This document shows, piece by piece, positions 3,145-24,143 of a stretch of DNA of 27,737 nucleotides. Source of the stretch: a virus; the IMG/VR virus record IMGVR_UViG_3300025128_000248, positions 1 through 27,737 of that record; one strand, 5' to 3'. The notes under the pieces were generated by a model that made no database searches, was not told the DNA's origin, and saw nothing but the letters and a program-made list of their open reading frames with translations. Within the stretch, counting starts at the first letter, position 1; each line of letters begins with the position of its first letter. The translations under genes and the position numbers were made by a program.

Positions 3145-3549
3145 ATGAAAGATATAATAGAACAATTAAAGATTCACGAAGGATATAAGCCTACTGTATA
3201 TAAATGTACGGCTGGGGTAGACACCATTGGAGTGGGGTTTGCTATTAAAGATTTAAACCTATCTGAAGAAGTATGTGAGTTGATCCTTACTGAAAAATTA
3301 GAAGTATTAGAAGAAAGATTTGAAAAGAAATTTGATTGGTTTCAAGAAAGTCCTGTAGAAGTCAGGAATGTTATGCTGAATATGGCATATCAATTAGGCT
3401 TTGCAGGATTTTGTAAATTTAAGAAAACCATAGCGTACCTACAAGAAGCAGAGTGGGAAAAAGCCTCGGAAGAGATGCTTGATTCCAAGTGGGCTGTACA
3501 GACTCCCAACAGAGCTAAAGAGCTATCCGAAATAATAAAATCTCTTTAG
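3145..3549 (+). CDS. Endolysin, T4-type lysozyme (GH24)
   Basis: This 134-residue enzyme should cleave the MurNAc-GlcNAc bond of peptidoglycan. The catalytic Glu is E12 in IHEG; C21 and T27 follow with exactly the E-8-(D/C)-5-T spacing of T4-type lysozymes, so Cys replaces the usual Asp20. The glycine-rich TIGVGF segment matches TIGxGH of the family, with Phe in place of the last His. The C-terminal QTPNRAKEL (about 119-127) is the usual GH24 ending. There is no signal peptide or N-terminal TM/SAR segment, so release needs a holin, and a candidate lies at 4875. The start ATG lacks a good ribosome site; the frame is open upstream to 3061 but offers no better start. Confidence 0.93.
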   Translation: MKDIIEQLKIHEGYKPTVYKCTAGVDTIGVGFAIKDLNLSEEVCELILTEKLEVLEERFEKKFDWFQESPVEVRNVMLNMAYQLGFAGFCKFKKTIAYLQEAEWEKASEEMLDSKWAVQTPNRAKELSEIIKSL

Positions 3550-3579: not shown

Positions 3580-4794
3580 ATGTCATCTGATGAATACTTA
3601 AATAAGGTTCTAGCTTGCCCTAGATGCTACAGTACAGGTCTAACTAAAAGCGGCTTTGATAAATACAAACAAAGATACGATTGCAAGGGCTGTAAATATA
3701 GAACCGTTAATCCTATAGAGGATTTAGAGCTTCTCCGAGAGAATGTTAAGTATCGTAAACAGAAGCAGAAAGCCCAAGATGTTACCAGAATAGAAAGAAA
3801 GGGCTTTAGAGAACACGCAAGAATTGAGAACGCTGTAGAAGAATACAGCAAAGAATTAAAAAAGCTTTTTGAAAAGAATAGACTACATAAGCTCACTAAA
3901 AGTCATAAGATTAGTAAAAGGGCGGTTGGGGTCATCCAATTTAGTGACGTTCACTTTAATGAATTAGTTGAACTTCAGAACAATAAATATGACTTTAAAG
4001 TTGCCTCGCAACGATGCCAATACTTTGTAGATAAGGCATCGGCTTATTTCAAGATTAATGGAGTTAGCCAAGTTGTGGTTGCTTTAACTGGAGATCTAAT
4101 GAATAGTGACCGAAGGCTGGATGAATTACTTAATCAGGCTTCAAATAGGGCGAAGGCTACCTTTTTAGCAGTCGATATAATGCAGCAAGTCATACTCGAC
4201 CTAAATAAAAGCTTTAATGTAAGTGTTGCAAGTGTAGTAGGAAATGAAGGGCGTGCCAATAAAGAGTTGGGTTGGTCAAATTCAGTAGCTACAGATAATT
4301 ATGATTATACTATATTTACTTGTTTGAGGTACCTATTTAAAGAATCAAAGGTACATTTTATAGATGGCGATCCATCTGAAATAGTCATAGATGTAGCAGG
4401 ACAAAACCTTTTAATGCTTCATGGTCATGGAGCGATAAGTGCAGGCGTAGAAAAGTCTATAAACCAAATATGTGGAAGATACTCTATGAAAGGTATCAGA
4501 ATAGACTATGTTATATTTGGTCACGTCCATTCAGCTAGAGTAGGGGATTGTTTTGGCAGAAGTTCAAGTATGGTGGGAGCCAACGACTACTCTGAAAAAG
4601 CTTTAAACCTCGGTGGAAGAGCAAGTCAGAACGCTTATGTGTTCTATAACAATGGAAATCGAGATGGAATTAAAATAGACTTGCAAAACGTAGATTGTAA
4701 GGGTTATAACATTGATAAAACTTTGGAGGCGTACAATGCAAAATCAGCCAAAAAAAGCAAGAAAACTGAAACCATATTCAAGGTGGTCGTATAA
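3580..4794 (+). CDS. Zinc-ribbon / calcineurin-like metallophosphoesterase fusion
   Basis: This 404-residue protein combines two domains. Residues 10-42 form a zinc ribbon with C13-x2-C16 and C35-x2-C38, resembling the ribbons that precede transposase-type DNA-binding regions. A basic helical linker (about 50-112) follows. The catalytic domain carries the metallophosphoesterase motifs in order: DVH (D123, H125), GDLMN (D172), GNEGR (N222), HGHG (H281, H283) and GHVH (H315, H317). The two-metal site therefore looks intact. The substrate is unknown; nuclease or phosphodiesterase activity on DNA is a reasonable guess given the ribbon. It sits between the endolysin and the holin candidate, an odd place for a nuclease. 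The C-terminus is Lys-rich and overlaps a small ORF at 4736. Confidence 0.87.
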   Translation: MSSDEYLNKVLACPRCYSTGLTKSGFDKYKQRYDCKGCKYRTVNPIEDLELLRENVKYRKQKQKAQDVTRIERKGFREHARIENAVEEYSKELKKLFEKNRLHKLTKSHKISKRAVGVIQFSDVHFNELVELQNNKYDFKVASQRCQYFVDKASAYFKINGVSQVVVALTGDLMNSDRRLDELLNQASNRAKATFLAVDIMQQVILDLNKSFNVSVASVVGNEGRANKELGWSNSVATDNYDYTIFTCLRYLFKESKVHFIDGDPSEIVIDVAGQNLLMLHGHGAISAGVEKSINQICGRYSMKGIRIDYVIFGHVHSARVGDCFGRSSSMVGANDYSEKALNLGGRASQNAYVFYNNGNRDGIKIDLQNVDCKGYNIDKTLEAYNAKSAKKSKKTETIFKVVV

Positions 4795-13315: not shown

Positions 13316-13752
13316 AACTTAATATACTTTTACCTACTTGCGAGGGTTGTCAGTATCACAACTTTCCTTATTCGGCTGAAATTCCAGTCTTAATTGACGG
13401 AGTTAGGGAAAAACGCAGATTCGACAATATGGATGACGTTTGGGCAGTTGCAAACCTTATTATAGAGGAAACTGCCCAAGTCAATGAACAGCAAAATAGA
13501 TCTTTTGATATTGCTCAATCATTGGTTTCGCAGATACCTTTTTTTGCTTGTGCTAATAAATTTATGGATATTAGCTTGCATAAAGATATAGAAAGGTACA
13601 CATATTGTGAAAAATTTAATATACCTCCTTATGAGGGGTCTTATGACAATCAGCCAGCTAAATGGGTTAGGCGGGCATTTGCAATCAGAACAGCATTTGC
13701 TAAAAAAGAAAAGAAGGAAATAGATGTCAGAAAGAATACTAATAAAGTTTAA
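13037..13752 (+). CDS. Tail assembly chaperone, frameshift fusion (gpGT-like)
   Basis: A -1 slip at GGGAAAC joins the first 87 residues of the short form to a 151-residue extension, giving 238 residues. The -1 frame is open from a TGA at 13288 through the slip site to the TAA at 13750-13752, and has no well-supported start of its own near 13291; the internal ATG at 13429 has no ribosome site. The extension contains C102-x2-C105 and YHNFPYSAEIP and ends in a basic helix. It overlaps the tape measure start by 29 bases. In lambda-like phages the T domain recruits tail tube subunits to the tape measure. Frameshift efficiency is unknown. Confidence 0.8.
13291..13297 (+). promoter_or_regulatory. 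Programmed -1 frameshift slippery heptamer GGGAAAC
   Basis: In the 0 frame the bases are read as xxG GGA AAC, an exact X-XXY-YYZ arrangement. Both tRNAs can re-pair as GGG AAA in the -1 frame, which then runs open for 151 codons. The site lies 15 bases before the 0-frame TAG. A short GAGGG/CCCTC pairing (13289-13293 with 13304-13308) overlaps it; no strong downstream stem or pseudoknot was found by eye. Confidence 0.82.
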
Positions 13753-16222
13753 AGCATCAGGAGACAATAGGCTCCGAGCTTCAATGATAAAGCTAGCTGG
13801 CGCTCAAAGCTTGCTTGAAAAAAACACTAAAGAATTTAGAAAAGCTTTATCAAACCTTTCAGGTGCTTTTGATAAAACAGAAAGAAGGTCAAGGCTTCTT
13901 AATAATTCATTTGCTACGCTTCGTTCTAAAATGCTTCTCTTCTCTTTTGCTATGTCAATGGGTGGAAGGCAGTTAATTCAATTTGGTAAGCAGGCTGCTA
14001 ATTTAGAGGCTATGGAAACAGCTTTTACTAACCTTCAGGGTGGAACAGAAAACGCTGCTATAGCTATGGATAGATTGAGGGCGGCTACAGACAACACAAT
14101 GTCTAATTTTGATTTATTTCAGCAAGCTAATAATGCAATGATTCTTGGAATCACGACAAGTTCAGAGGAAATGGCTCAAATGTTTGATATGGCTCAAAGG
14201 CTTGGTGAAGCTTTGGGAAAAGACACAAGGCATTCTGTAGAGTCTCTTATTACTGGTATTGGTCGCCAATCGAGACTTATGCTTGATAACATTGGTATTA
14301 TTGTTGACACAGAAAAAGCTTATAAAAATTATGCCAAACAAATAGACGTAACTGTTGACCAACTTACAGACGCAGATAAAAAACAAGCATTTTTTAATGC
14401 TACAATGGATTCTGCTAAACAAAAATTAAAAGGAATAGGACCAGAGGTAGATACTCCTATAAGAGCTTTTAATAGATTCTCTGCTAGTATGACAAATTTA
14501 GGAACCTCTATAGGAGAAGATTTTTTAGTAGCTGCTGTTCCACTTTTAAATATGCTTTCAGGCATAGCAAATGCACTAGAGAATGTTAATTTTGCACAAG
14601 TTGCAAAACAGGCTAGTATTTTTGCTGCTGCTATTTTTACAGTTACAAAATCAGGTAGAAGAGCGGTAAAAACTTTAATTGCTTTTAAAGCTAGCATGAT
14701 AGGTCTCGCATCAGGAACTAAAAAAGCAACGCTTGCTATGGCAAAATTTAAAAGAGCATCTATAGTTTTTATTGCATTGGAAGGAATTGTTTTTGCACTT
14801 GAAAAGACGATTGGCTTTTTTGGAAACAGTTCTAAAGAAAACTTTGAAGAAGCTACCGAATCTGTCAACGAATATGTTGTTGCTTTGGGAGGTGTTCCCA
14901 ATACAACCAAAGATTTAACAGCAGAGCAAGATATTCTTAATGAAAAATTACTTTCTATTAAAAAGGCTGTTCCCGACATTAGAGACCTTAAAAAGGAATA
15001 TGAGTCTTTAATTAAGATAGATACTACCGAGTTTTTAGGACAAAATATTGAATTTCTTGATGTTGAAGCTCAAAAAGAAATGGCTGCATTTTTTACAAGT
15101 GATATATTGCCAGCGATAAAACAAACGCTAGGCGTAGACAAAGAAAGTCTTAATGTAAAAGTTGCTTTGTCATTAATAAATCAAAAATTACTTGATATTG
15201 AGCTTCAGAAAGAAGTTGCGTCCAAGTCTTTAATTCCAAATCTTGAAAAAGAAATTGCAATGATTCAGCTAAAAACCCAATTTGAGGGAACTAGATTAGT
15301 TTTGATGCAAGAACTTTTAAAGGTAGATCAAAAGGATTTGGATTTAAATGACTTTGAGCTTTTTCAATTAAGTATGTTGATTATAAAGAAGCAAGAGCTT
15401 TTAAAGCAAATTTCAGATGAAGAAAAAGAAAAAAGAAGACTGGAAAAAGCTGAAAGAGATGCTGCAAGATTAAGAGAAAACCAAATATCTGATGCTCAAG
15501 CAATTGTAGACTCAATGAAATCTGAAATGGAAATAATTGAAGAACAAATAACTCTATACGAAGCACTACGGTTTGCCGCAATAGGCTCAAGAGATGTAGA
15601 GGCTGCATTTGCGTATGGACAAGCTTTAGATGTTTTAAATCAACAAGCGATAGACTTAAAAGAAACTTTAGAAGATGCAAAACTAGAAAAGTTCCTTGAC
15701 ATGGATGTTGTAAATGCATTTTCTAATGCCTTCTCAAGCGAAATAGTAAGAGCCATTGAAACTGGAAAAATGAGTTTGGAAAGTTTTGGTAGATCATTTT
15801 TTAGAGTAATAAATCAAATGATTGCAGAGATAATTGCAGCAGAAACTTTAAAAGGATTTTTTAAGCTTGCGATGATGTTTATTAATCCTGCGGGAGGTGT
15901 GACTGCTAGCTTGGGGTCTGCCGTTGGGACTGAAGTTTTTCCAGCAGTTATACCTTATCACAGCGGAGGAATGATAAGAGGCAGGCAGCAAGGCGGAGAT
16001 GTTCCTATGGTTGGGCAGGAAGGTGAGTTTGTAATGAGAAGGTCAGCCGTAGAATCTATAGGACTAGAAAATATGAACAGAATGAATAGAACAGGACGGG
16101 TAGGTGGGGGAGCCAACATAACATTTACAGGAAATATAATGAGTGATACTTTTATTGAGGAAGAAGCCATACCTAAAATTAAAGATGCAATCCGCAGAGG
16201 TGAAGATTTAGGAATTAATTAA
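13724..16222 (+). CDS. Tape measure protein
   Basis: This 832-residue protein sets tail length; at about 0.15 nm per residue it predicts a tail of roughly 125 nm. The N-terminus is helical (coiled-coil rich), with the conserved early region ANLEAMETAFTNLQGG and ITGIGRQSRLMLDNIGI around 105-190. Hydrophobic helices occur near 270-370, and long charged coiled coils near 390-660 (EEKEKRRLEKAERDAARL). The C-terminus has the typical GGMIRGRQQGGDVPMVGQ and GEFVMRRSAVESIG motif at about 746-782. AAGGAA precedes the ATG, which lies within the end of the frameshift product. Its stop overlaps the next ATG by one base. Confidence 0.92.
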   Translation: MSERILIKFKASGDNRLRASMIKLAGAQSLLEKNTKEFRKALSNLSGAFDKTERRSRLLNNSFATLRSKMLLFSFAMSMGGRQLIQFGKQAANLEAMETAFTNLQGGTENAAIAMDRLRAATDNTMSNFDLFQQANNAMILGITTSSEEMAQMFDMAQRLGEALGKDTRHSVESLITGIGRQSRLMLDNIGIIVDTEKAYKNYAKQIDVTVDQLTDADKKQAFFNATMDSAKQKLKGIGPEVDTPIRAFNRFSASMTNLGTSIGEDFLVAAVPLLNMLSGIANALENVNFAQVAKQASIFAAAIFTVTKSGRRAVKTLIAFKASMIGLASGTKKATLAMAKFKRASIVFIALEGIVFALEKTIGFFGNSSKENFEEATESVNEYVVALGGVPNTTKDLTAEQDILNEKLLSIKKAVPDIRDLKKEYESLIKIDTTEFLGQNIEFLDVEAQKEMAAFFTSDILPAIKQTLGVDKESLNVKVALSLINQKLLDIELQKEVASKSLIPNLEKEIAMIQLKTQFEGTRLVLMQELLKVDQKDLDLNDFELFQLSMLIIKKQELLKQISDEEKEKRRLEKAERDAARLRENQISDAQAIVDSMKSEMEIIEEQITLYEALRFAAIGSRDVEAAFAYGQALDVLNQQAIDLKETLEDAKLEKFLDMDVVNAFSNAFSSEIVRAIETGKMSLESFGRSFFRVINQMIAEIIAAETLKGFFKLAMMFINPAGGVTASLGSAVGTEVFPAVIPYHSGGMIRGRQQGGDVPMVGQEGEFVMRRSAVESIGLENMNRMNRTGRVGGGANITFTGNIMSDTFIEEEAIPKIKDAIRRGEDLGIN

Positions 16223-18078
16223 TGATAGAGCTTCCAAAAAGATTTAAGCTAGACGTAGAATCGAAAACAACAAACTTGGTTCCATTGATTGTTATTGACG
16301 ATACTTTTTATTTTTCTACAAATAAGGTTTATTTAGAAAACAATTATGAAGCAATGTTAAAAAACATTGGCTCTATAACTGAATCTATAGACGTAGAAAA
16401 GAAAATTTTTAAAATATCATCTTTAAAAATAGAGTTTTTTAATTCTGACTACATTGATCCGCCTAATAATACTCCTTTGTCTGTAAGGTTGTTTAATCCT
16501 TCTATTATGAACAAAAAATTAGATGTTTATTATAAATCACAATCAGCGCAATCTTTAGATGATTGCTTAAAGGTGTATTCAGGGTACGTAAAAGATGTTC
16601 AAGAAAACCTACATACTTTAGAAATAAATTGCGAAGATAGGACTGAAATGATTTTAGACCAAAAACTTCCTATAAGAAGAACCCCAATAAGCGATGATTT
16701 GCCTGAAAAGCGAAGAGATGTCCCTATTCCTATAGCTTACGGAGTTCTTGATAGAGCTGCTTTAATCTATAATTCTCTGACAGAAATAGATGCAAATAAA
16801 CATTATGTTGCTATTGCTGACGATTTTCCTATAAAGTCTTGTTCAAGCCCTAAAGTTTTTTTAGACAATTCTTATTGCAATATATCTAAATCGCCAGAGT
16901 TTTTTCAATCTTTAAAAGAATCAACTGTGTATAAGGGGTTAAACAAAAATCAATACATTGACTCTGAAGACGAGAGTCATTTAGGCGAAGATAATTCTAT
17001 TATTTTTGAAACTCAATACGATGTTTCTTTTTTAGACATGAACCAATTTTACCCTGACGGATCTCCTGTGTCTGCAAATATAGTAGAGGTTTTACAAAAA
17101 AGCGACGTTGCATTTAAAGATGCGAGCTATTCTTTAAAGTGGGATTATTCTCCTACCTATGTTGAGCAAAACGGACTTCCTGAAGGCGACCCTAACGAAG
17201 GTTTTGCGGTTTGCCCTGTTAGACCACACACAGATATTCAGGGACTCAATCCTAGCAATAATTTTTATTATACTTATTTTATGCCGTCTTCAGATTTTGA
17301 AGGATTTCCTCAAATTCAAAGAGATAATCAGGATTGGCTTTGGGACATGAATCAATATTTTTATGGAGGAAACATACTAGGAAATCAAGTGTTTTTTGAT
17401 ATAAGGTCTTTAAATATGATTTCTGCGGAAACTATTGAAACATTTCCTTCTCAAAATATTTTAAATGTTATGCCGCACATAGATGAGAATCAAGATGATA
17501 TTGAATTTAAATCAAGAATAGGCATAACTTATTCAATCGATTCAAAGATTAATTTTGGAGATTACGAAATTTCCCCTTTGCCTAGCAGCAATATTGTAAA
17601 CTTTAGAACTGAAATTTCTTTTATGTGTGGGACAAGAGGAATTGAGCATCTTATTTTAGATGACACGCCTATTACAGGCTATAGTTACCAAGATACTGAT
17701 GGAGATTCGTTTGTCGACATAGAACACCACCATAGTGCTAAATCTACTGTTCAATGGTGGGGGACAGACGATATTTCTAATAGAGGCATAGAAATAGGAA
17801 ACAGATATTATAGCAGCAATTACGGCTATAGCACTTTTCAGGCAGAAGGAAAGGCTCTAGAATATTTAAAATTTAATTCACTCAAAGTACACAAGCAGGC
17901 TATATTAAAAGGGTTTGATAACTTTAAATTGTATGCCAAAGTAGAAGGAAGAGTTGACAATATTTATGGAAGATACACAGGAGAGGCTTTAAGCGCATCA
18001 TCTTCTACAGCAAGCGCAACTACAGAAACCCCAAGCAATAGCGAAGGTTCATCAAGCGGTGGGGGCGGAGGATATTAA
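16222..18078 (+). CDS. Distal tail / tail-tip protein
   Basis: This 618-residue protein is directly downstream of the tape measure, where distal-tail proteins are encoded. It has a beta-rich N-terminal domain with LVPLIVIDDTFYFSTN, LKIEFFNSDY and VYSGYVKDVQENLHTLEINCEDRTE, which resembles a tail-tip hub strand pattern. A later part includes IPIPIAYGVLDRAALIYN. The C-terminus is a flexible Ser/Ala/Thr tail ending in five glycines and Tyr (about 590-618). One-base overlaps occur at both ends. No enzymatic motif was seen; a baseplate or hub role is an inference from order. Confidence 0.68.
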   Translation: MIELPKRFKLDVESKTTNLVPLIVIDDTFYFSTNKVYLENNYEAMLKNIGSITESIDVEKKIFKISSLKIEFFNSDYIDPPNNTPLSVRLFNPSIMNKKLDVYYKSQSAQSLDDCLKVYSGYVKDVQENLHTLEINCEDRTEMILDQKLPIRRTPISDDLPEKRRDVPIPIAYGVLDRAALIYNSLTEIDANKHYVAIADDFPIKSCSSPKVFLDNSYCNISKSPEFFQSLKESTVYKGLNKNQYIDSEDESHLGEDNSIIFETQYDVSFLDMNQFYPDGSPVSANIVEVLQKSDVAFKDASYSLKWDYSPTYVEQNGLPEGDPNEGFAVCPVRPHTDIQGLNPSNNFYYTYFMPSSDFEGFPQIQRDNQDWLWDMNQYFYGGNILGNQVFFDIRSLNMISAETIETFPSQNILNVMPHIDENQDDIEFKSRIGITYSIDSKINFGDYEISPLPSSNIVNFRTEISFMCGTRGIEHLILDDTPITGYSYQDTDGDSFVDIEHHHSAKSTVQWWGTDDISNRGIEIGNRYYSSNYGYSTFQAEGKALEYLKFNSLKVHKQAILKGFDNFKLYAKVEGRVDNIYGRYTGEALSASSSTASATTETPSNSEGSSSGGGGGY

Positions 18079-20684
18079 TGATAATATTTTTAAAAAGAGG
18101 AAATTTTGTAACAAACCAAGGGCATATTAAATTGCAATTAAATAATGCTAATATGTTAAATCTTGCAGAACAAGCAGATGGAACAGATGAAAATATGTTT
18201 TTAAGAGCAGTAAACGGTCAGGATGGCTGCGAGATTACTTTAGAAGGGTTTGGATTTTCATTGTGCTATCACAGAGATAATTATGATTTTGATAATATGT
18301 GGGGTCTTATGTCAACATATAGCCCTATTAATTCCGATTACATAAAATATGTAGGACATCAAGGAATGGGATGGGTTTTAGACAAGACTCCTGAATCTTC
18401 ACCACTTATTGGAGATATTAATCAAGATGGTTTAACAGACATTTTAGATCTTGTTAATATTATTCAAAGAATTGTTTCGGGCGAGGCAGGAGAAATTGTT
18501 GGGGGGGGGGATTTTACAGAAGAAGAAATTCAATCTTCTGACTTTAACGAAGACGGTGTTATAAATATTCTTGATGTTGTTAATTTGGTAAATCAGATAA
18601 TTAATTCAGAAAGCTCTCAATCTCTTGAATTTATTCCAATAAATTTTTTAGGTCATTCTAAAGCAGGGTTTTCTGGAAACACTAATTCACTAGAAAACAT
18701 AGGGGGTGCTTATGGTTATGCAGGGGAAAACAGTTATGTTTCTAGCGGGGATTACCTTTCTTTAAACCCTGTATGGACAACTCCTAATGTTGCTTGCGAA
18801 GTTACAATTCCTTGCCCAAATTCTTTTAATCCGTCAGGAAATTTGGCTTTAAAAACACAATCTGAATCCAACGGATTAGCAAATTATTTTTTAAATTATG
18901 ACATAGGTTTTGACAACAATAATTTACCGTCTTGGAAAACATCTCAATTAAACCAAATCAGAGAAACATCTTTTTCTGACCACACGCCATACAAAGATAT
19001 TGTTTTTGGTTTTAGATTAGGAGTTAGGCAAAATGGAGAACTTTTGTTCCCGATCCATGCGCAAGTTCCTAATGATTGGAATTGGGGAGATTACAATAAT
19101 TTAGGCTCTATGATATATCAGCCATATTCTGTAGAAGAGGGCGCACCTGAATACAATTTTGAAATATCTGTTTCTACAAACGAATCTTTTTCTTCTATGG
19201 GAGATAATGGCGTTGGCTCTATAAGCTTGCAAATATCTTCTCCTTCAAATTTTTCAGGAACTATTAATTTATATGCTTTAGACGAACAAGATGATTTGGT
19301 CAGTATTTCTGATTCGACTGGGTTAGATTTAGACGAATTTGACCAAGCGCAATTTGGCGAAGCAAACTGTGTCTCATCTATTGATATTTTAGCAGGGGAA
19401 ACTAAAACAGTTAGCGTTGAGTATTCCTCAAATGTAGAGGCGCAAGGGCAAGAAGATTATTTTTCATTTATTGCCCAAATGGCATCTTTAGACCAATCTG
19501 AATATTATGACTTTCCTGCCGAATCTCAAGAGCAATTTGATTTGTTAGAAGTCGACCAAAAAACTGTTTATTTAGACAGAATCTATGTTCCTTACAATGC
19601 GGAAGTAATTGATTCAAGTTTTGTACAAGACGAGATTCAACCTTTAGAAAACTATGGATCTGATGCTATTTACGAACCAGGCGATAAAGTTATACAAAAA
19701 CCCTGCGATATTATTTTTCATCTTTTAGAGCAAGAGCTAGGATATGATAAAAATATTGACACAAAAAGTTTGAGTAATGCTAGGACTTTTGACTCTTATA
19801 CTGACCCTGTTTTTTTTGATGTTTCATCTTTAAACACCAATGATTTTATTATGGCTTTTAGTTTAGACAAACAAAAGGATGCAAAAAAATTAATCAGCGA
19901 AATTGCAAAATCTAGTAAAATAATACCTACGCTAGCTAATGATAAATTAAAATTTATATCTTTAAGAAACTTTTATTGGGGTGGAACAAAATACTGGCAA
20001 GATGTTGGTTCAACTATAACTGAAGATGTTTCTCTGGTTAAAAGAAATGATATTATATCTTATAATTTTTCAAGAACATCAATAGATAATCTTTTAACTG
20101 AAGTTGAGTTAAAGTACAACTACGACAGGGGTTTAGGTCAATATTTAAAGTCTGTAAAAACAGAAATTGATGAAAATTATTTTTATTGCGGCACTCAAGC
20201 ATCGGTGGAAAAAAAGAATTATTATGGATTAAGGGAAAAAAGCGATGGTTCCGTAGATCATTTACATACAAATAAAGTATATGAAAGTCAATATATAAAG
20301 CATAATGACGGAGGAGATACGGCTAGAACTTTAGCAAACTATAATTTATCATGGAATCAAAATCAACACAATATTTTAAATATTTCTTTGCCTGTAAAAT
20401 ATTTTAATCTTGAAATAGGAGATTTAATTGAATTTGACAAAATGATTTTAGATAAAAAAATATATGGCGAAAAGTATGTTTTAGAAGACATAGATGAAGA
20501 TGGAATATATCAGGATATGCCTATTAGGTGTGGTCAGTATATATTGCCTTTATGGATAATAACAAAAATTAGAAAAAACATAGACAAGGCTCAAGTCACT
20601 ATTGTGCAACTTCATCATTTAGACAGGTATAAAAATTTGAGATGGAAAGGAGTTGATTACCCATCTCCTTTTCCTGTAATTTAA
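18078..20684 (+). CDS. Tail-tip protein with dockerin-like Ca-binding domain
   Basis: This 868-residue protein has an N-terminal tail domain (about 1-105), then a dockerin-like pair of EF-hand loops. Loop 1, DINQDGLTDILD, uses D113, N115, D117, D121 and D124; loop 2, DFNEDGVINILD, uses D155, N157, D159, N163 and D166. Each is followed by the hydrophobic helix typical of type I dockerins (LVNIIQRIV; VVNLVNQII). A Gly linker between them is encoded by ten consecutive G bases. A beta-rich region (about 350-500) and a large tail-tip domain (about 540-868, GDKVIQKPCDIIFHLLEQELG onward) follow. The ends couple by TAATG with the upstream gene. Dockerins normally bind cohesin modules; no cohesin was seen here. 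Confidence 0.78.
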   Translation: MIIFLKRGNFVTNQGHIKLQLNNANMLNLAEQADGTDENMFLRAVNGQDGCEITLEGFGFSLCYHRDNYDFDNMWGLMSTYSPINSDYIKYVGHQGMGWVLDKTPESSPLIGDINQDGLTDILDLVNIIQRIVSGEAGEIVGGGDFTEEEIQSSDFNEDGVINILDVVNLVNQIINSESSQSLEFIPINFLGHSKAGFSGNTNSLENIGGAYGYAGENSYVSSGDYLSLNPVWTTPNVACEVTIPCPNSFNPSGNLALKTQSESNGLANYFLNYDIGFDNNNLPSWKTSQLNQIRETSFSDHTPYKDIVFGFRLGVRQNGELLFPIHAQVPNDWNWGDYNNLGSMIYQPYSVEEGAPEYNFEISVSTNESFSSMGDNGVGSISLQISSPSNFSGTINLYALDEQDDLVSISDSTGLDLDEFDQAQFGEANCVSSIDILAGETKTVSVEYSSNVEAQGQEDYFSFIAQMASLDQSEYYDFPAESQEQFDLLEVDQKTVYLDRIYVPYNAEVIDSSFVQDEIQPLENYGSDAIYEPGDKVIQKPCDIIFHLLEQELGYDKNIDTKSLSNARTFDSYTDPVFFDVSSLNTNDFIMAFSLDKQKDAKKLISEIAKSSKIIPTLANDKLKFISLRNFYWGGTKYWQDVGSTITEDVSLVKRNDIISYNFSRTSIDNLLTEVELKYNYDRGLGQYLKSVKTEIDENYFYCGTQASVEKKNYYGLREKSDGSVDHLHTNKVYESQYIKHNDGGDTARTLANYNLSWNQNQHNILNISLPVKYFNLEIGDLIEFDKMILDKKIYGEKYVLEDIDEDGIYQDMPIRCGQYILPLWIITKIRKNIDKAQVTIVQLHHLDRYKNLRWKGVDYPSPFPVI
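18501..18510 (+). repeat. Ten-base poly-G tract inside the dockerin-like domain
   Basis: Ten G bases encode three glycines plus the first base of an Asp codon, between the two dockerin repeats. In an AT-rich genome this is exceptional and is the only such tract in the window. Gain or loss of one base would truncate the 868-residue protein after about 145 residues, so it is a candidate contingency locus. It could also hide a miscounted base, but the frame is intact at ten. Confidence 0.9.
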
Positions 20685-20702: not shown

Positions 20703-21137
20703 ATGGAAAACAATATAATTAAACAATCTCCTGCGACTAACGTAGAAATAAAATATGCAAACGGAAATGTTTTTTGCAATTCAAATGGAGAGGTTGCAGC
20801 TTTTGAAATTACTTACAAAGGGTCTATAAATGCAATAAACAAGCTAGGAAATGGATGGACTTTAACAATAGGAGAAAACAAAATAATTATTGTAAGTATT
20901 GCGCAAACTCCTGTTTCTAATGTTTTGTTTTCATACATAGGTGTGTTTGAAATGCTTTCTTGCTCTTATGTTACGTGGGATTTAAAAAAACACAGGGCTA
21001 AAATTTTAGGTATAAAAAAAGAATATTGGACAAATAATTCGACTCAATGGGGTTCGGCAGGCACAAAACCTGAAGAACTTGAGTCTGGTAAAATTGTTAA
21101 AAAAAGAATAAAAAAAAGAATTGTTAGGAGAAAATAA
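20703..21137 (+). CDS. Small tail-tip associated protein
   Basis: This 144-residue protein has a beta-rich body (VEIKYANGNVFCNSNGEV; WTLTIGENKIIIVSI) and a strongly basic C-terminal tail (KKRIKKRIVRRK). It lies between two tail genes and overlaps the next start by one base (TAATG), with AGGAG near its end serving that gene. Its own ATG lacks a classic ribosome site. A structural tail role is likely from context; the basic tail is unusual for a tail-tip protein and might interact with a packaged or surface acidic partner. No family was recognised. Confidence 0.68.
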   Translation: MENNIIKQSPATNVEIKYANGNVFCNSNGEVAAFEITYKGSINAINKLGNGWTLTIGENKIIIVSIAQTPVSNVLFSYIGVFEMLSCSYVTWDLKKHRAKILGIKKEYWTNNSTQWGSAGTKPEELESGKIVKKRIKKRIVRRK

Positions 21138-22375
21138 TGGCTAGAAAACAAATAGGAACACCAAGATTTTATTGCGACATACCAAGTTATTTAAAAAGCA
21201 TAGGAATGTATCACGGTACAATAACTTCAGGATTATTTACACCGAATGAGCCTAATCAAGAAAAAGTCTACACAATGAATCCTTACCAACCTAATAAATT
21301 TAGAGGGGGTTATAGCCATCATTGGGCAGCTTTTAGATTTGGAATAAATCAAGAGCCTGCAGACCTTGATGAACAAGAATTAATTAAAGACTATGAATTA
21401 AACAAGCTGTTAAAATACCGCAATAATAGTAGCGGTCATCATTCTAGCGGTTGGTATGCAGGTGTTTTAGGTCATAAGTTTGCAAGCCTGCAAGCCGAAC
21501 TAGGGGCTAATATACATATGTGTCAACGATTTATAGGAAGTGACGGAACAGGGGGTTCAAGCAGTATACTTTACTCTAATCCTACCGCTTTTGAAGAAAT
21601 TGTAAATTATAAAACTACTGCTGGTAGTAGCAATGCAGGGGAAACTGGCATGGCAAAATATGATGGCTATTCTTTATGGGAAATAACAGACAAAAACAAT
21701 ACTGAAGACAGAAGGTTTAATGTACTAGAATTTATTAATATAAGTGAAAATGTTATTGGCGACACAGAAAATCAACCATGGGCAGATTGGGGAGATAAGC
21801 GAATAACCATAGGATCAAATACTTGCGGAATATTTGTTGAAGCACCCAATTCTCCTGATCTTAATGTTTCTTTAGAGCTAAAGATGTCTGGAGCAGCTAT
21901 ATATGAAACACCTGGAGGAGGAACTTTGGTAAACATGAACCATATAGGGGTTCCTAATTGGGGCGACATTCCTGCATGGAAATTGCAAAAAACAAATGGA
22001 AGAGATTATACTAAAGTTGCTAACAAAGCTAGAAGATGCTGGAAAATAAAGTTTAGCTATATATCTGACGACAACTTATTCGATAAGGTTGAAAATTCTA
22101 ATTCATTTTATAATGACAGTTTTACAGGTGATGTAGAAGATGCCTATGATTTAGATAATTTTGATACTTCTATGAGCACATTTTTTAAGCTAACTCAATA
22201 TGGAAGCCTTCCGTTCATATTTTGTCCTGACTCTAAAGCTACCGCAACTATAGATGGTGTTGAAGAGCCTAATCCAGAACTTGCTATATGTATGTTAGAC
22301 CAAGACTCTATATCTTGTACTCAAGTAGCTCACAGGACTTGGAATGTTTCTTTAAGTATTAGAGAGGTTTATTAG
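21137..22375 (+). CDS. Tail protein, last gene of the late operon
   Basis: This 412-residue protein has aromatic-rich stretches (HHWAAFRFGINQE; SGHHSSGWYAGVLGHKFASLQAELGANIH) and beta-rich segments such as NVSLELKMSGAAIYETPGGG. It ends with LAICMLDQDSISCTQVAHRTWNVSLSIREVY, the kind of final strand set seen in tail-tip proteins. It may be a tail-tip or receptor-contacting protein. It converges on the leftward early operon with only 20 bases between the two stops, and no terminator is obvious there. The function is inferred from position only. Confidence 0.65.
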   Translation: MARKQIGTPRFYCDIPSYLKSIGMYHGTITSGLFTPNEPNQEKVYTMNPYQPNKFRGGYSHHWAAFRFGINQEPADLDEQELIKDYELNKLLKYRNNSSGHHSSGWYAGVLGHKFASLQAELGANIHMCQRFIGSDGTGGSSSILYSNPTAFEEIVNYKTTAGSSNAGETGMAKYDGYSLWEITDKNNTEDRRFNVLEFINISENVIGDTENQPWADWGDKRITIGSNTCGIFVEAPNSPDLNVSLELKMSGAAIYETPGGGTLVNMNHIGVPNWGDIPAWKLQKTNGRDYTKVANKARRCWKIKFSYISDDNLFDKVENSNSFYNDSFTGDVEDAYDLDNFDTSMSTFFKLTQYGSLPFIFCPDSKATATIDGVEEPNPELAICMLDQDSISCTQVAHRTWNVSLSIREVY

Positions 22376-23321: not shown

Positions 23322-24143
23322 TTATAATCCACAATAACCTTCACATTCCTCTACAAACATATCTAGCTGGTTTTCTTGGAAGTCTGCTTCATCTAAAGGC
23401 TTACATTGTCTGCTTAAATACTGCTTTTCTTTCATTTTAGGGTTTACTCTTATAGCTTTGTCTATTGTTACCGCCATATCCCAAGCCTCCCCTTTTTCTT
23501 TTTTAAGATCAGTCCAAAATTTATCAGAATGAAATGGGCAAAACACACAACTTGACTTAACAGGTACAGGAAAATTATTTTCTTTAAAAAAGTTCATGCA
23601 ATCTGATCTGCTCATATTATGATATATTAGAGGGTAAAAATAATTTATATTATGCAAGGTGCATTCTTTCATTCTTTGAATTTCGTCTAAAGATATTCCT
23701 AGCCACATTTCCGTAGACTTCATTCTTTGCCTTGGCTTTAATCCGTGTAGCTCTCTAGAGCTTTCTATAACAGGCTTTATCTTATAGTCAGATGTGCATT
23801 GCCTCATAACCAAGCCGTTGTTTTCTGTGTGTGCAGGTATAGATGCTACTCTAGACCCATTTTTATACCCATTTATAATATCTTTATATAAATTCCTTTT
23901 GTCATTAACTATAATTGGTATGCCATTGTTTTGTTTTTGCCAATCTAATAACCATTTAAGCATTTCGTATGTTTTTGGATGCTCGGCTTGAGGATCCGCA
24001 AAAATAGCAAAATCTGCCCTAGATAATTTATGCCCCATAGAACTCATTAAATACACAGCCGTAGACTGAACACCCATCCCTAAAGATATAACCTTCAGGT
24101 CTGCATCTTTATTTCCTTTAGCTGTTTTCCAACCTTCTTGCAT
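23322..24143 (-). CDS. PP-loop ATPase, PAPS-reductase-like (Fe-S)
   Basis: This 273-residue protein belongs to the adenine-nucleotide alpha-hydrolase group. The N-terminal nucleotide loop is SLGMGVQST (S20-T28), a variant of SGGKDS. Later come FADPQAEHPKTYE (about 48-60), MRQCTSDYKI (C116), GISLDEIQRM (149-158) and SSCVFCPFHS (C199, C202), then C267 and C271. The Cys set suggests an Fe-S cluster as in DndC and related enzymes. Members include sulfate-assimilation reductases, DNA phosphorothioation DndC proteins and many uncharacterised phage forms. A base- or backbone-modification role is possible beside the methyltransferase and nucleases. The 3' end of the HNH gene overlaps its start. Confidence 0.82.
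   Translation of the reverse strand: MQEGWKTAKGNKDADLKVISLGMGVQSTAVYLMSSMGHKLSRADFAIFADPQAEHPKTYEMLKWLLDWQKQNNGIPIIVNDKRNLYKDIINGYKNGSRVASIPAHTENNGLVMRQCTSDYKIKPVIESSRELHGLKPRQRMKSTEMWLGISLDEIQRMKECTLHNINYFYPLIYHNMSRSDCMNFFKENNFPVPVKSSCVFCPFHSDKFWTDLKKEKGEAWDMAVTIDKAIRVNPKMKEKQYLSRQCKPLDEADFQENQLDMFVEECEGYCGL

Follow-up and report, generated by a model that had tools for sequence, protein, structure and literature searches.

The window analysed here is a viral record of 27,737 nucleotides (27.7 kb) that is classed as linear, has a GC content of 35% and carries, by sequence, terminase- and capsid-like genes. Its plus strand encodes a tape measure protein (13724..16222; PHROG 3779, E 9.5e-14), which is followed by four consecutive tail-tip genes with products of 618, 868, 144 and 412 aa. 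The 618-aa tail-tip protein (16222..18078) lies upstream of the 868-aa protein (18078..20684), a tail hub or tail-tip protein that carries a dockerin and was assigned from the ORF and its homologs L002-L033 and L072-L122. In distant relatives the 618-aa part is fused to the hub, and in L028, L029, L031, L032 and L033 this results in dockerin-terminated proteins of ~1300-1400 aa (1294-1400). Downstream of the hub gene lie the 144-aa gene (20703..21137) and, directly behind it, the gene of a conserved 412-aa protein (21137..22375) with 56-60% identity to its relatives, which probably belongs to the same tail tip. The first-pass annotation had called the 868-aa product a tail-tip protein. This was supported, as the ORF lies behind the tape-measure gene (PHROG 3779) and as L069, a distant homolog of the hub from a bacterial genome, exceeds the cut-off of Pfam Phage-tail_3 (PF13550) with 28.8 bits against 23. 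The same family scored only below threshold in close relatives and gave no match in the 868-aa protein of the window. Phage-tail_3 or gpJ-like hubs are encoded in the same gene order of tape measure, tip protein and hub; in the window family, however, a dockerin terminates the hub, whose distal part is encoded by separate genes. In an annotated phage collection no relatives of the 868-aa or the 618-aa protein were found, and matches confined to the dockerin came from seven unannotated faecal records.

The dockerin of the 868-aa protein is of type I and spans residues 112-174 (18411..18599, plus strand). Pfam PF00404 (Dockerin_1) matched the protein with 33.0 bits (gathering score 22.9, E 7.1e-8), and a six-frame search of the window led to the same location with 36.8 bits; dockerins of relatives likewise exceeded the threshold of this family. 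The two calcium-binding loops, DINQDGLTDILD (residues 113-124, 18414..18449) and DFNEDGVINILD (residues 155-166, 18540..18575), both present an acidic residue or Asn as ligand at positions 1, 3, 5, 9 and 12, conform to the duplicated type I dockerin motif D-x-[ND]-x-D-G-x-x-[ND]-x-x-D and are each followed by a hydrophobic helix-like segment. The first-pass annotation had placed a dockerin-like domain here and described it as two EF-hand loops with a hydrophobic helix behind each, and the Pfam match above the gathering score with two intact loops confirmed both position and description. When a profile of eight phage dockerins was compared with the PDB, 15 of the 16 matches at E<=0.01 were dockerins or dockerin-bearing enzymes; a single-sequence search with the window dockerin gave weak dockerin matches, with calcium-sensor proteins among them. 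An AlphaFold prediction of the whole 868-aa ORF reached a mean pLDDT of 39.8, with values of ~30-40 in the dockerin region and low-confidence helices after both loops. Since this model is too poor, the assignment of the dockerin fold is based on the sequence profiles. A chance match is argued against by the finding that the module occurs in 64 of 64 complete homologous genes that were collected with a query lacking the dockerin. Judged by these profile comparisons, the dockerin in the 868-aa tail protein is genuine. It shares the tandem EF-type loops and helix-like segments of the type I dockerins of clostridial cellulosome enzymes (PDB 1ohz, 2ccl, 6kgc). However, the phage version is located on a tail hub and not on an enzyme, and some phage relatives have one repeat. 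Moreover, loop positions 10-11 are hydrophobic in the phage (IL/VL), in contrast to the Ser-Thr that is typical of Clostridium thermocellum dockerins.

The search with the hub domain only, without the dockerin, returned 65 loci, which together with earlier loci amounted to 67 unique viral contigs. Three of the hubs were truncated, and the hub gene was complete in the other 64 contigs. One dockerin-type module was found in every complete gene by an iterated profile; a first dockerin profile had detected it in 58 of the 64, and the six apparent exceptions, all divergent, were recovered by the iteration. For three of these six (L105, L112 and L117), fragments also gave Pfam dockerin matches above the cut-off (28.9-38.7 bits). 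No phage record contained more than one dockerin; a candidate outside the hub (L025, 5421-5783) was a lone 13-bit match and was judged to be chance. In the window a conserved C-terminal hub domain covers residues 528-848 (19659..20621), and the dockerin is located behind this domain in all contigs except the window and L001, nearly always directly after it at the C-terminus. A scan with the 412-aa gene led to syntenic loci whose 868-type proteins carry the dockerin at the extreme C-terminus. Only the window and L001 have an internal dockerin (110-176), and both lack a C-terminal copy. These two records represent one phage, since they differ by only two bases over ~14.8 kb aligned without gaps. 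The window dockerin is most similar to the C-terminal dockerins of L011 and L014 (60-61% identity) and looks as if it had been relocated within the hub gene. As it lies near the N-terminus and not at the C-terminus, possession of a hub dockerin seems to matter more than the site of its attachment.

Between its two repeats, the window dockerin has a linker that contains a tract of ten G (18501..18510, plus strand). It lies inside an 8-residue insertion that is unique to the window phage in the alignment with relatives, is the sole run of at least seven G in the 35% GC contig, does not occur in 100 shuffles and is identical in L001 (5705-5714). Because a slip of one base at this site would truncate the tail hub, the tract is a possible phase-variation site or a sequencing hazard.

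Retention of the calcium ligands in relatives had been named in the first-pass annotation as a point on which the dockerin would stand or fall. The ligands are preserved in most relatives, but one repeat is degenerate or missing in some. A single EF-type repeat forms the C-terminus of the hub in L081, L083-L085 and L090, and such a half dockerin might function as part of a hub multimer. In L018, L079, L080 and L082 the first loop is degenerate and the second intact. Alongside the calcium loops, the recognition helices of the phage dockerins retain an ILDVVxIVNxI pattern.

The product of the next gene, the 144-aa protein, is the proposed partner of the dockerin. A cohesin fold had been suspected from its sequence before a model was available, as the pattern NGEVAAFEI...GW...K.IIFSMA resembles cohesin strands. 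AlphaFold, run with 22 family members (model m9ea506afa085), predicted a nine-strand jelly-roll sandwich with a pLDDT of ~90 over residues 10-103. In a Foldseek search of this model against the PDB, the cohesin 2vo8 ranked first (E 3.6e-4, probability 1.00), and cohesins occupied ranks 1-6 and 8, that is seven of the top eight. Similar results were obtained with VIA-align, in which ranks 1-14 were all cohesins, with a best Z of 9.6 (99 aligned residues, 2.6 A), and in which most rows with Z of 8 or more were cohesins. The best PDB alignments of the predicted sandwich were thus to cohesins (2vo8, 2jh2, 6kgc_A, 2xdh; Z up to 9.6). Carbohydrate-binding modules, which share the sandwich fold, are also present in the Foldseek and VIA-align lists. 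A comparison of the model with BFVD gave nine matches with E below 1e-7, all to unnamed proteins of viruses. At the sequence level, the Pfam cohesin family PF00963 had no match in the 15 members of the 144-aa family that were scanned, and hhalign of the family profile with marine cohesins was not significant. The window has one antisense match to PF00963, which at 12.6 bits was regarded as fortuitous. For want of a sequence-level match we call the 144-aa protein cohesin-fold rather than classify it among the cohesins, and common descent with cohesins is unproven, as neither Pfam nor the profile-profile comparison gave a match. On the basis of one predicted model, the protein probably adopts a cohesin-type beta-sandwich. 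It has no detectable sequence relation to known cohesins and differs from them in being encoded as one lone domain within the tail operon of a phage and not as part of a scaffoldin.

The search for cohesins that the first-pass annotation had recommended was successful on the side of the host, with PF00963 present in genomes of the candidate-host phylum, but not in the first 32 viral records, none of which had a match over the cut-off. A further proposal, that the dockerin holds an enzyme, was not substantiated, since Pfam detected no enzyme domain in the tail ORFs tested. A cellulosome combines a multi-cohesin scaffoldin with dockerin-bearing carbohydrate-active enzymes. By this definition the phage system is not a cellulosome, given the lack of PF00963 matches over the cut-off, at most one dockerin per record and tail ORFs free of enzyme domains.

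Dockerin hub and cohesin-fold gene are closely linked. According to iterated profiles, all 60 loci with downstream sequence have both; four dockerin loci lacking downstream sequence and the three truncated hubs were excluded. This and similar counts do not represent independent events, as the contigs are mutually related. The gap between the hub gene and the 144-aa gene is mostly -46 to +20 bases, and three hubs (L026, L100 and L119) continue directly from the dockerin into a fused cohesin-fold domain. The reverse scan with the cohesin-fold gene yielded 22 loci, every one on a contig of the hub set. We also considered co-evolution as support for the pair. In a partial Mantel test the dockerin distances tracked the 412-aa gene as well as the cohesin-fold gene (0.33 each), and this argument was rejected because it is not specific to the dockerin and its neighbour.

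Hub homologs in cellular genomes pointed to a candidate host. A genome scan by hub patterns returned no relatives, which surfaced only with the family profile: 4 of 245 genomes in the phylum to which a Neomarinimicrobiota MAG belongs (NCBI Fidelibacterota) had hub homologs, compared with 0 of 241 in the phylum of a Phycisphaeraceae MAG, which served as control. Two of the four hub-bearing genomes also have homologs of the window capsid, 323-aa and 336-aa genes. The four related hubs end at the hub domain, with neither a dockerin nor a cohesin-fold gene behind it. The prophage-like loci L068 (G136), L069 and L070 (G144) and L071 (G140) encode compact fused tip-hub proteins of ~710 aa that lack a dockerin, and the capsid, 323-aa and 336-aa homologs are located in L068 and L070. 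The phage dockerin profile matched proteins in 147 of 245 genomes of the Neomarinimicrobiota phylum, many of them with 60-69 bits as top scores, compared with 32 of 237 genomes and a best score of 42.6 bits in a dockerin-bearing control phylum. Cohesins over the Pfam cut-off were present in 106 of 199 Neomarinimicrobiota-phylum genomes, and many genomes of this phylum hold tens to more than 100 dockerin-type candidate stretches each. The dockerins and cohesins sampled there belong to other proteins, and the related prophage hubs are free of dockerins. No tRNA was found that could serve as a host clue. Taken together, the hub homologs, the shared phage genes, the same type of dockerin and the cohesins of the phylum make a host from the Neomarinimicrobiota (Fidelibacterota) likely for the window phage, as far as genome comparison can indicate.

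On balance we lean slightly towards a virion-encoded, calcium-dependent joint of the dockerin/cohesin type in the tail tip, which is suggested by sequence, linkage and predicted fold. The hub of this marine phage family bears a two-repeat calcium-binding dockerin of type I, and this dockerin would most likely dock into the cohesin-type beta-sandwich of the 144-aa protein encoded by the next gene. The calcium-dependent joint would fix the 144-aa protein, and possibly also the 412-aa protein, to the tail hub and may act in tip assembly or in attachment. From the computed dockerin, linkage, fusions and predicted fold we infer mutual binding, the need for calcium and the role at the tip. The chances are about even that the marine phage family encodes its own calcium-dependent snap joint of the cohesin/dockerin type, possibly captured from dockerin-rich Neomarinimicrobiota hosts. 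Of the docking options listed in the first-pass annotation, a cohesin-like module of the virion thus received most support through the 144-aa neighbour, and a host cohesin keeps a smaller share. In the latter case the tail dockerin would plug into cohesins displayed by the host, as a receptor-binding module that mimics host dockerins, and the 144-aa protein would have another role at the tip. The far stronger matches of the phage dockerin profile in the Neomarinimicrobiota phylum than in the control, the cohesins in that phylum, the hub genes absent from the control and the two genomes with further phage-gene homologs are consistent with this explanation. Nevertheless, we regard it as rather unlikely: the host is deduced from distant prophage-like relatives that are themselves without dockerin, the constant cohesin-like fold of the next gene and the three fusions would be left unexplained, and receptor-binding parts usually vary fast, whereas the dockerin module is universal in the family.

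The dockerin could also have no cohesin partner at all and serve the hub only as a calcium-stabilised spacer or folding cap. Calcium sites are frequent stabilisers of phage tail proteins, and the relatives with one repeat or a degenerate first loop would fit such a role. However, the ILDVVxIVNxI recognition helices are kept along with the calcium loops, the module seems to have moved within the hub without being lost, and the neighbouring gene product has a predicted cohesin-type fold, which makes a pure spacer improbable. Finally, the 144-aa protein might bind dockerin-bearing proteins or glycans of the host and be held by its own dockerin loosely or not at all. Host dockerins would be plentiful, considering the many dockerin-type stretches in genomes of the Neomarinimicrobiota phylum, and carbohydrate-binding modules of the same fold appear in the structure-search lists. 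Yet the strict 60/60 linkage with the phage's own dockerin and the fusions behind the dockerin argue against this explanation, which we consider very improbable.

Dockerins and cohesins have attracted attention chiefly for holding cellulosomes together and also occur in related bacterial and archaeal proteins; we know of no phage virion that employs them. Neither module is new in itself, but a virion that uses them would be. In the open-licence literature we found no phage tail reported to contain either module; absence there is no proof. Two mentions of dockerins in phages are unrelated to the tail-hub dockerin, one concerning a blastp match of a Vibrio phage gene (PMC3558961) and the other the carbohydrate-binding module of a protein from an E. 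coli phage (PMC5967307). The dockerin described here is a constant component of the hub in dozens of uncultivated viral contigs and lies beside a cohesin-fold protein. If the hub dockerin and the 144-aa protein bind each other, phage tails would own a calcium-dependent, swappable joint for tip proteins, and with a true snap joint a cellulosome-type module would have been put to use in virion assembly. If the dockerin plugs into host cohesins instead, this would provide a receptor hypothesis for phages of the Neomarinimicrobiota. Either reading would offer small, new, calcium-switched binding pairs for protein engineering.

Some further observations were made during the analysis. The MAG chromosome CP070758.1 (Gemmatimonadota bin29; L034, L036) carries 81 cohesin matches as well as dockerins, possibly a large non-cellulosomal cohesin/dockerin system. 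In the window, a 134-aa ORF between the capsid and tail genes (3145-3549) appears lysozyme-like by eye and is adjoined by an exonuclease gene (PHROG 284, 3580-4794). On the minus strand, the ORF at 23322-24143 resembles, also by eye, the PAPS-reductase type.
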